DNA from: Brachyspira aalborgi
Lineage (GTDB): Bacteria; Spirochaetota; Brachyspiria; Brachyspirales; Brachyspiraceae
Direction: 5' to 3'
NCBI RefSeq assembly: GCF_008016455.1
Contig: NZ_SAXU01000001.1
Location: 620,001 to 684,000, forward strand
DNA: 64,000 bases
The position numbers and the translations under genes are program-made. A model generated the notes under the pieces. It was not told the origin of the DNA and did no database searches. It saw only the letters and a list, made by a program, of their open reading frames with translations. Positions 5,673 to 62,828 of the stretch are shown one piece after another. Numbering within the stretch: position 1 is the stretch's first letter; each line of letters opens with the position of its first letter.

Positions 5673-6611
5673 TTAAATTTTAAATTTATTTCTAAAATTA
5701 TCTCGCCATTTTCTAACGGGAATCCACCAAGCTAAAGTATCAATTAATTTATTTAATCTATCTAATTTATCATTTCTACTTTCAATTAAATTTTTATCAT
5801 TAATAAAAAACTTTTTATTTACTAGCATTATATTTATAAATTTATCTACTAAATCTTGTTTATAATGTTTAGAAAATAATTTTTGACATTCCAAAATATC
5901 ATTATCGGTAGGCAAATATTCCCAAGGCAAAGTTAATAAATATAGATAATCTAAAATATTGTCTTTTATATTTTCGTCTAAAATTACAGCGCCGATATTA
6001 GCAAATCTATTCCATAAACCTTCATTAAAACTTAATTTTTTGCCTCTTAAACAGCTAAATAATATACAATTTGTTATACTATGTCTTTCATTGCCATTAT
6101 AATGCAACGCAATGTCATGCAATATTAAAATAGCGTTCTTTTTAAGATATGGCAATACTATTAAAAAATCTAAAAATTCTCCAGGATTTATATGCATCGT
6201 ATCTATTAAGCATAAATTTATTTCTCCCCCGATTTCCTCCATATATTTTGCCGCTGTTCCTCCCGTATATAACTTCCATTTATTTTTAAGATTACTAAAT
6301 TTTTCATCTATAATAAAACCTGTATTTTTAGAATTATCATAATACAATTTTGTATTATAATCTACGGAATATAATTTAGCGTTATCAAAATCTTTTATAG
6401 CATTTAAAATAATAGCCGAACTCCCGCCAGCTGACACACCCAATTCAAGTATCTTTTTAGGTTTAGTTTGTCTGACTATTCCATTCAAAAAATACCTTTC
6501 TAAATAAGTCATTTCGCTAGTAAGCTTTGATTTAGTAATCTTTATATCTAAAATATCGTTGATTTGATTTAATACTTCATTTTCAAATTTTTCAGGTTTA
6601 TCTATTATCAT
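5673..6611 (-). CDS. Class I SAM-dependent methyltransferase, glycan-type
   Basis: The 312-residue protein has a Methyltransf_24 / cephalosporin-hydroxylase-like Rossmann core: KILELGVSAGGSSAIIL (motif I, about residues 54-70), an acidic strand YSVDYN, and CLIDTMHINPGEF with a DIALHYN loop that could bind a metal or sugar. The C-terminus ends WWIPVRKWRDNFRNKFKI, a basic aromatic tail that I associate with spirochaete and Campylobacter glycosyltransferase-type proteins (from memory). Modification of a surface glycan is therefore likely but inferred. GGAG precedes the ATG. The gene lies downstream of a leader that holds a 5-bp tandem repeat (6780-6933), so its expression may vary between cells. 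Confidence 0.7.
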   Translation of the reverse strand: MIIDKPEKFENEVLNQINDILDIKITKSKLTSEMTYLERYFLNGIVRQTKPKKILELGVSAGGSSAIILNAIKDFDNAKLYSVDYNTKLYYDNSKNTGFIIDEKFSNLKNKWKLYTGGTAAKYMEEIGGEINLCLIDTMHINPGEFLDFLIVLPYLKKNAILILHDIALHYNGNERHSITNCILFSCLRGKKLSFNEGLWNRFANIGAVILDENIKDNILDYLYLLTLPWEYLPTDNDILECQKLFSKHYKQDLVDKFINIMLVNKKFFINDKNLIESRNDKLDRLNKLIDTLAWWIPVRKWRDNFRNKFKI

Positions 6612-6779
6612 TTTTTACTCCTTCTTTCTTTATTTAATTTATTTTTTATTTGCGTAAATTAAATTTGAAAGAAGATTTTAATTTAGTAGTAAAATATGAT
6701 TTTATAATATTTGCTAAAATGAATATAAATAATAATCTATTCTTATTATAAAATTTAATAATTAAAACATATATATAAA

Positions 6780-6872
6780 TTAAATCTTTGCAATGAAAAA
6801 ATCGCCGAAAAAATTTATAATGCGGCGTGTAGTGTAGTGTAGTGTAGTGTAGTGTAGTGTCAAACTAAACAT
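6780..6872 (-). CDS. Leader open frame containing a pentanucleotide repeat
   Basis: An ATG at 6872-6870 follows an excellent ribosome site (GGTGGAG, 7 bases upstream) and a consensus promoter. After four codons it enters six ACACT units, encoding TLHYT repeats, and stops after 30 residues at TAA (6782-6780). Loss of one unit would shift the frame and extend it to 73 residues, ending at 6646, only 35 bases before the methyltransferase start; gain of one unit would stop it within a few codons. The strong signals argue that it is translated; its role as a switch for the downstream gene is inferred. Confidence 0.5.
   Translation of the reverse strand: MFSLTLHYTTLHYTTRRIINFFGDFFIAKI
6827..6860. 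repeat. Pentanucleotide tandem repeat (GTGTA / ACACT unit)
   Basis: Thirty-four bases of perfect 5-bp repeat, about 6.8 copies. On the plus strand every frame contains TAG, whereas on the minus strand all frames are open, which fits a coding repeat on the minus strand. A unit of five is not a multiple of three, so each slippage event changes the reading frame. Confidence 0.95.
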
Positions 6873-6904
6873 ATAAAATCTCCACCTTATTTTTTAATGA
6901 ATAA

Positions 6905-6933
6905 ATTATACAATATTTTAAAAAATATGTCAA
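6905..6933 (-). promoter_or_regulatory. Consensus sigma-70-type promoter of the repeat-containing leader
   Basis: Read on the minus strand, TTGACA (6933-6928) and TATAAT (6910-6905) are separated by exactly 17 bases. Transcription would start near 6898, about 26 bases before the leader ATG at 6872. This is one of the best promoter matches in the window. Confidence 0.75.
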
Positions 6934-31750: not shown

Positions 31751-31779
31751 TTGACAAATTTTTTAATCTATGTTATATT
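31751..31779 (+). promoter_or_regulatory. Consensus sigma-70-type promoter of the repeat/lipoprotein locus
   Basis: TTGACA (31751-31756) and TATATT (31774-31779) are 17 bases apart. The start of transcription would be near 31786, about 36 bases before the ATG at 31822 and about 310 bases before the lipoprotein ATG at 32096. Confidence 0.7.
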
Positions 31780-31821
31780 TTAATTATATTTATAGTTAAA
31801 TAAATAATGGATTATAAAAAA

Positions 31822-31896
31822 ATGAATAAAAATACTGTAATTTTGTTAAGCAAAGCAAAGCAAAGCAAAGCAAAGCAAAGCAAAGCAAAGCCATAA
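31822..31896 (+). CDS. Leader open frame containing a pentanucleotide repeat (SKAKQ)
   Basis: From the ATG at 31822, nine codons (MNKNTVILL) run into eight CAAAG units, which encode SKAKQ repeats, and the frame ends at TAA (31894-31896) after 24 residues. In the next frame the DNA is open from 31850 through to 32587, including the lipoprotein. One extra repeat unit, or two fewer, would therefore join the leader in frame to the lipoprotein, adding 93 residues in front of its Met. No ribosome site precedes the leader ATG. Translation of this frame is inferred from its layout. Confidence 0.4.
   Translation: MNKNTVILLSKAKQSKAKQSKAKP
31848..31890. repeat. Pentanucleotide tandem repeat (CAAAG unit)
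   Basis: Forty-three bases: AAG followed by eight perfect CAAAG units. The unit length is not a multiple of three, so slippage changes the downstream reading frame. All three frames of the repeat are open on the plus strand. Confidence 0.97.
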
Positions 31897-32095
31897 TTGT
31901 CTTTTAAATAATAATTTTAAATTTTATATATCTAAATTTTTAAAGGCATTTAAATTTTTAAGTGTCTCAATTTTATTGCATAATTTAGTTAAAACTTTTT
32001 TAACTTCAATCAAATTTACTTTCGATAACTTATCAAGGAAAATAAAAAATCCTTGTTTAGTTATAAATAAAAATTTTTTAAAGGAGGATTTCACA

Positions 32096-32587
32096 ATGAA
32101 ATCTAAACAAATTATTATTATGCTCTTATCGTTTATTATCCTGTTTGCGATAAGTTGCAAAAATGACGACAAAACGGGAGGAGGAGTCGATGAAGGTTTA
32201 GTAGTTCAAAATCGTAATCATCCGCCAGCTGGAAGCTATTATGATGGTGGTAATACTAACACGGGTTCAGCACATACCGTCACACATAATATAGACGGTT
32301 CTTGCAAAATATCTGGAAAAGTTTATCCCATTAATGGAAACGGTTTAGACTATGAGATTACTGTAACAAATTGGTTAAATTATCCCAATATCACAACCGT
32401 CCAAAATCTTAATTATGTTGGCACATCGTATGGTGGAGAATATACTATTACTAAACCATCTCCTAATTCTTTAGACTCTTTCAATGTAATATATGACTTT
32501 ACCACTGAAACTATATCCTCAATATCTTTAAGAACTGCTTCGGACAGCAAACACTATAGCGCATTAAATTTGAAAAGGGGTAATTAA
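32096..32587 (+). CDS. Secreted lipoprotein, unknown function
   Basis: A perfect ribosome site (AAAGGAGG) stands 7 bases before the ATG at 32096, which fixes this start over longer in-frame alternatives such as the TTG at 31976. The 163-residue product has a lipoprotein signal peptide with lipobox AIS-Cys at about residue 20, then a Gly/Asp/Asn-rich linker and a beta-rich domain (ITVTNWLNYPNITT). It should be anchored by lipid in a membrane. The gene lies downstream of, and in frame with a possible slippage product of, the CAAAG repeat, so surface expression may be variable. Family not recognised. Confidence 0.75.
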   Translation: MKSKQIIIMLLSFIILFAISCKNDDKTGGGVDEGLVVQNRNHPPAGSYYDGGNTNTGSAHTVTHNIDGSCKISGKVYPINGNGLDYEITVTNWLNYPNITTVQNLNYVGTSYGGEYTITKPSPNSLDSFNVIYDFTTETISSISLRTASDSKHYSALNLKRGN

Positions 32588-62180: not shown

Positions 62181-62324
62181 TTATAAAAAACCTTTGCTAT
62201 ATAAATTTTTATTTAATATATTAAGGTTAATTATAATTCGGTTATTAGGTTTTTGCAAATTAATTTATTAAAAGTCTTATAATTTAATAAAGTTAAATTT
62301 TGTAAAAATATATTGATTTAATAT

Positions 62325-62352
62325 TTGACAAATTTTTATTTTATGTTATTTT
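62325..62352 (+). promoter_or_regulatory. Promoter, first copy, upstream of grdX
   Basis: TTGACA (62325-62330) and a TATTTT box (62347-62352), 16 bases apart, in the first duplication unit. Confidence 0.45.
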
Positions 62353-62403
62353 ATATATGTTAAATGATAAATTAAATTTTGTAAAAATATATTGATTTAG
62401 TAT

Positions 62404-62431
62404 TTGACAAATTTTTATTTTATGTTATTTT
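62404..62431 (+). promoter_or_regulatory. Promoter, second copy, directly at the grdX start
   Basis: TTGACA (62404-62409) and TATTTT (62426-62431), 16 bases apart, with the ATG only 4 bases after the second box. Transcripts from here would be leaderless; transcripts from the first copy would have a leader of about 75 bases. Confidence 0.5.
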
Positions 62432-62435
62432 ATAT

Positions 62436-62828
62436 ATGTTAAATAAAAAGAAAAATATAATAATTACGAATAATCCGAAAATATTAGAAGAAATTTCCGA
62501 TAAAAATATAGAAATTTCTTATTTTGAGCAAGCGGATTTTATGGAGATTTCATATAAGGCGAGGGATTTTATACATTTAGGATATAAACTTTTAACTCAT
62601 CCTATTGTCAGCAGTATAAAACCTTATGAAACTCCTTATAAAACCATAGTTCTTGCTTATAATAACGGAGAAATTGATTTAGAATCTATAGAATTAATAG
62701 AAAATTCTATAGAATTATTAAAAAATTTTTTAGATAAACCGAGAAGAAAATTGACTAAAAGTATAGACGAAGATTTTAAATTAATAGATTATAAATTAAT
62801 AAGCGAGGCTATAGAAAGTATAGCTTAA
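62436..62828 (+). CDS. grdX: GrdX family protein
   Basis: The 130-residue protein has the GrdX pattern: KNIIITNNPKILEE at the N-terminus, ARDFIHLGYKLLTHPIVSSIKPYE in the middle and SIELLKNFLDKP further on. GrdX opens glycine reductase operons in Clostridia and in spirochaetes that use glycine as electron acceptor; its biochemical role is not established. The ATG at 62436 lies at the end of the second promoter copy without a ribosome site, so translation from a leaderless message is possible. trxB follows after 17 bases. Confidence 0.88.
   Translation: MLNKKKNIIITNNPKILEEISDKNIEISYFEQADFMEISYKARDFIHLGYKLLTHPIVSSIKPYETPYKTIVLAYNNGEIDLESIELIENSIELLKNFLDKPRRKLTKSIDEDFKLIDYKLISEAIESIA

Follow-up and report, generated by a model that had tools for sequence, protein, structure and literature searches.

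A repeat-bearing leader before a Brachyspira aalborgi methyltransferase gene as a probable phase-variable switch with many counterparts in the genome

Results and discussion

Anatomy of the methyltransferase leader

The stretch of DNA analysed here (the window) comprises 64,000 nucleotides of the Brachyspira aalborgi genome (positions 620,001-684,000) and carries on its minus strand a gene (5673-6611) for a 312-residue protein with a Pfam Methyltransf_24 domain. This gene has a ribosome-binding site of its own (AAGGAG, 6623-6618). Further upstream on the same strand lies a consensus promoter (6905-6933), with TTGACA at 6933-6928, a 17-nt spacer and TATAAT at 6910-6905, matching at 12 of 12 positions, and this is followed by a second ribosome-binding site, AGGTGGAG (6887-6880), and the ATG (6872-6870) of a short leader open reading frame. 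After four codons the leader enters a perfect period-5 array of 34 bp (6860-6827) made of six full ACACT units and four further bases, (ACACT)6.8, which codes for HYTTL, is free of stops in all three frames and is the presumed site of slippage. Elsewhere in the region five promoter-like sites score 9-10, their total being equal to the shuffle mean, and a promoter scan of the region and leader gave no strong downstream promoter able to bypass the leader. A search of the locus for known RNA families found none.

The promoter, leader ribosome site, leader ATG and array agree with the first-pass annotation of the window, as does most of the reading-frame arithmetic when the frames are recomputed. 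At the present copy number the leader comprises 30 codons and a stop (6780-6872), ending 168 nt before the methyltransferase gene. With one unit fewer (n = 5) it runs to 73 residues and stops at a TAA (6648-6646) 34 nt before the methyltransferase ATG at 6611, and with one unit more (n = 7) it stops early, after 20 residues. The annotation had further held that one arrangement only brings ribosomes close to the gene; one unit fewer does open the frame (6826-6646), but so does every third copy number, for instance 8 and 11. Thus n = 8 gives 78 residues and n = 2 gives 68, both ending at the same distance of 34 nt, and n = 4 gives 15. Dinucleotide shuffling of this leader leaves a frame open as far as the last 40 nt before the gene in 0.6% of cases (p ~0.006).

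Absent from the earlier annotation is a terminator-like hairpin with a U-tract, CGCCG-15-CGGCG-ATTTTTT, placed directly past the array (6827-6796, minus strand) and equalled by 2 of 100 shuffles. It is modest (five pairs around a 15-nt loop, -5.1 kcal/mol), its folding z of -1.24 is not exceptional, and a default terminator scan, which considers loops of 3-8 nt, passes over it. Relative to this hairpin the three phases of the leader stop inside it, 23 nt past it and 157 nt past it. The present six-unit state had been taken as OFF; it need not be, because its stop is the one that falls just past the hairpin.

The protein was also described as a glycan-type methyltransferase. The domain match bears out the methyltransferase, and a glycan substrate would be in keeping with that domain and with the company of related genes. 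The nearest named relative is a protein from an uncultured Brachyspira, and among 26 Brachyspira genomes, one per species, matches occur in 21 if short hits to a C-terminal motif are included, about ten being full-length. Many methyltransferases and glycosyltransferases of the genus carry a short motif resembling AWWIPVRKWRDNFRNKF, perhaps an anchoring helix, at the N- or C-terminus; the protein encoded here has it at the C-terminus.

Arrays and cassettes across the genome

Pattern searches and fetched stretches of the 2.50-Mb genome revealed about 45 arrays of penta- or heptanucleotides. A 300-kb sample, chosen without regard to arrays, holds four pentamer and three heptamer arrays, which extrapolates to a total of ~58 per genome (95% range 23-120); in this sample arrays of period 6 or 9 were not found. 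Among units of at least 4 bases, only non-triplet periods (4, 5 and 7) are enriched. Markov sequences of the same composition contain no array of at least four pentamer units in 64 kb or 300 kb, as against two in the window. The same sampling of two other species gave one array and four arrays per 400 kb.

A search of the genome with the ACACT unit returned ~13 arrays which, except for one that lies outside the cassette (L049), share their flanks: the promoter described above, TTTTATATGTTTAGTTTG ahead of the array and CGCCGCATTATAAATTTTTTCGGCGATTTTTTCATTGCA behind it, with small variations. We refer to this dispersed element as cassette A. Four more copies have the unit TACAA in place of ACACT, and copies stand before unrelated genes. 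The 5' arm of the hairpin is lost in two copies of cassette A (L051 and L052). At the methyltransferase locus only the 5' part of the leader belongs to cassette A, the remainder being different and longer, and the leader ends at -34, unlike the ATGA overlap of stop and start that is typical of other copies.

A second element, cassette B, has the unit AAGCA and over a dozen copies, one of which provides the second array locus of the window. Here, on the plus strand, a promoter (TTGACA-17-TATATT, 31751-31779) precedes a leader reading frame with an ATG at 31807 or 31822 and an (AAGCA)8.8 array (31848-31891), followed by a hairpin, CAAGGA/TCCTTG then TTTAGTT (32034-32055), and a lipoprotein-like gene (32096-32587). 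With n = 6, 9 or 12 the leader runs in frame through the lipoprotein-like gene and with n = 7 or 8 it stops early, as it does in the present phase. In the assembly early-stop phases are found in 8 of 11 copies of cassette A and 11 of 12 copies of cassette B.

Genes led by arrays elsewhere encode FkbM and class I methyltransferases, GT8 and PMT_2 glycosyltransferases, a pyruvyl transferase, an ABC transporter and lipoprotein-like proteins. They are mostly of surface type, and surface variation is the natural reading of such a set. Arrays of the classical type, within the 5' coding region of surface-type genes, are also present in this genome (L056, 5981-6009; L076, 14578-14606; L057, 5740-5763). 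Assembly gaps or contig ends lie in or beside several arrays (L062, 6087-6185 and 9626-9723; L083, beside 2658; the ends of C3 and C4, at L051 and L052), possibly reflecting mixtures of copy number, although they would fit ordinary assembly trouble as well. The window additionally contains a near-perfect 79-bp tandem duplication (62287-62444) that includes a promoter-like stretch, TTGACA...TATATATG.

Reading frames, promoters and hairpins

We chose 28 array families, roughly one per cassette or unit and with failures included, and compared the three frames that leave each array with those in dinucleotide shuffles of the same leader. An open frame comes within 40 nt of the next start, or passes it, in 22 of the 28, where the shuffles predict 7.4, and stop and start form an ATGA overlap in five, where they predict 0.26. 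The nominal p of 6e-16 for the open frames is overstated, given some dependence among the families and a rule-based choice of gene starts, yet the excess is still large and it spans different repeat units and species. Of 26 array families, 14 are preceded by a strict promoter (TTGAC/TAnnAT), the expected number being 0.13.

Between array and gene many leaders also have a hairpin with a T-run behind it. The CGCCG/CGGCG stem of cassette A becomes AGCCA/TGGCT in the TACAA-unit copies, with the same U-tract, so that two pairs have changed on both sides. In cassette B, where the T-run (TTTAGTT) is imperfect, changes on both sides affect four of the six stem pairs among copies; these pairs were tabulated by script, since a MAFFT alignment misaligned the arms owing to unequal loops. 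In an imperfect alignment of cassette B only 7 of 16 gap runs have a length divisible by three, and indel length was not used as evidence of frame conservation. Of 12 cassette B copies, 11 have the same frame open. A division of the frames into those that stop before the hairpin and those that stop inside or past it is seen in cassette B, in L091, L092, L104, L105 and L107, and in all six of the CAGAC loci tested. Cassette A, whose early stop falls in the hairpin loop, is less clear in this respect. L152 and a few other arrays break the rule, L152 in the position of its stops relative to a hairpin.

Counterparts in the genus

Most full-length homologues of the methyltransferase in other Brachyspira are also led by arrays, with other units (AACAC, ACAGTCT, AAGC and AAGAC). 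Only one other genome (G002) has clear copies of both cassettes; its methyltransferase homologue is preceded by a leader resembling cassette B, in which the array amounts to only 2.8 AACGC units and one frame is still open past the gene start. An orthologous lipoprotein leader in four species has kept an ACACT-type unit with copy numbers of 9.6, 10.8, 12.8 and 19.2.

In several species CAGAC arrays occupy instead the 3' ends of glycan-type genes, with a strong terminator behind them that only some frames run into. This position suggests that 3'-end arrays may control read-through to the next gene. At six such loci (L084, L092, L094, L095, L097 and L098) one phase leads into a conserved tail that ends in KKLQPMLQYxIAA, with its stop within the strong terminator before the next gene.

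Comparison with known systems

In classical intragenic phase variation, of the Haemophilus lic and Neisseria opa type, slippage in a non-triplet repeat shifts the frame of a surface gene. Such slippage would shift a frame in Brachyspira too, but here the repeat lies in a separate leader reading frame, ahead of a gene with a start and a ribosome site of its own; even in its longest phase the methyltransferase leader ends 34 nt upstream of the gene. There is also a likeness to attenuation of the trp operon type, in that the position of a leader ribosome would decide whether a terminator forms. The signal, unlike that of the trp operon type, would be DNA copy number, heritable and random, and not amino-acid supply.

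The closest design is that of pil1 and pil3 in Streptococcus gallolyticus, where ribosomes on a leader peptide frame disturb a terminator or leave it intact according to the GCAGA repeats in that leader, and where two phases of pil1 are ON and one is OFF (Danne et al. 2014, PMC3894217). Both systems consist of an own promoter, a ribosome site, a short leader reading frame with a pentanucleotide repeat, a stem-loop downstream and then the gene, and in both copy number fixes the leader stop relative to the terminator, which in Brachyspira is a terminator-like hairpin. The methyltransferase locus has the promoter upstream of its leader (12 of 12) as well as a leader with a ribosome site and a stop-free non-triplet repeat. 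Brachyspira departs from the streptococcal loci in having dozens of loci in one genome, with many units and two dispersed cassettes, in leader frames that run to the gene start, often with ATGA, and in a version that relatives of B. aalborgi carry within operons, at the 3' ends of genes. Function has been demonstrated experimentally only in Streptococcus, and it is by analogy that we regard the Brachyspira leaders as putative attenuators set by copy number.

A putative switch and its alternatives

The first-pass annotation proposed that a translated repeat leader makes expression of the methyltransferase phase variable. Comparison lends that proposal strong support: the design recurs, in this genome and in related ones, at dozens of loci with different units, one of its frames repeatedly reaches the next gene, and pil1 provides a tested precedent. 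We consider it probable that the methyltransferase locus is a phase-variable leader and one copy of a genome-wide set of switches, and we infer, with good support, that array-led genes are phase variable more generally. Transcription would start at the constitutive-looking promoter and ribosomes would enter the short leader frame with its (ACACT)n. Gain or loss of units by slipped-strand events at replication would change the frame of the ribosomes leaving the array, such that in one phase they stop immediately, inside the hairpin, in a second their stop comes shortly past the hairpin, and in a third they translate the whole leader, ending 34 nt before the gene. Leader translation might then suppress an intrinsic terminator, as in pil1, so that transcription continues into the methyltransferase gene, and/or prevent Rho polarity and couple translation to the gene start; early stops would lower methyltransferase expression.

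The annotation had attributed the effect to the proximity of ribosomes to the next gene. Coupling is kept here as a candidate, but it is probably not the sole mechanism because a terminator-like hairpin sits in the leader. If the gate were translational coupling or Rho polarity, the switch would be ON at n = 5, 8 and 11 alone and the present state would be OFF, as the annotation had it. Frames open to the gene in so many families, the recurrent ATGA overlaps, a genome that encodes Rho and the prevalence of early-stop phases in both cassettes all speak for such a gate, which is possible though somewhat less likely than not. It accords poorly with the good ribosome site of the methyltransferase gene itself, which means that strict coupling is not obligatory, with a leader stop 34 nt off, and with certain leaders, such as that of L092, that end just beyond a strong terminator and far from the gene.

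It is possible, if rather doubtful, that attenuation is instead the sole gate, in which case any phase that crosses the hairpin would be ON, including the present n = 6, and only n = 4, 7 and 10 would be OFF. The hairpin and U-tract directly past the array, with their compensatory changes, fit this reading, as do the n = 6 stop just beyond the hairpin, the one OFF and two ON phases of pil1 and a leader that lacks another strong promoter. Yet the hairpin is weak, and the early stop of cassette A falls within its loop and not upstream of it, a position that is ON in pil1. Attenuation as sole gate also leaves unexplained the frames that are open right to the gene, often with an ATGA overlap.

The arrays could also be passive passengers of dispersed promoter elements, with the gene expressed whatever the copy number. 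The cassettes are clearly dispersed copies, and recurrence within one cassette is for that reason not independent evidence; the passenger explanation is nevertheless unlikely, given that one frame logic is common to unrelated units and cassettes from several species, that only non-triplet periods are enriched and that the hairpins covary. That the leader encodes a functional variable small peptide, the downstream gene being incidental, is very improbable, for although the leader frames are open and their peptides show partial conservation among copies, these peptides are of low complexity and wholly different between cassettes, and what the leaders have in common is the position of their ends with respect to hairpin and gene.

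Conclusions

Beyond the single locus, it seems reasonably probable that cassettes of promoter, repeat leader frame and hairpin have been copied before surface-glycan and lipoprotein genes as a genome-wide contingency network, with units that differ by species and, in some species, a position at gene ends where they would decide operon read-through. Our search of the open literature, with subscription journals outside its scope, found no report of repeat-based phase variation in Brachyspira. If the proposal is true, a mechanism so far known in a single Streptococcus species, at two pilus loci, would be the main on/off system for surface diversity in a genus of gut spirochaetes. About 50 genes would switch independently in B. 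aalborgi, giving a concrete basis for surface variation in Brachyspira, and as the states of the switches can be read from any deep sequencing data, the proposal is directly testable.
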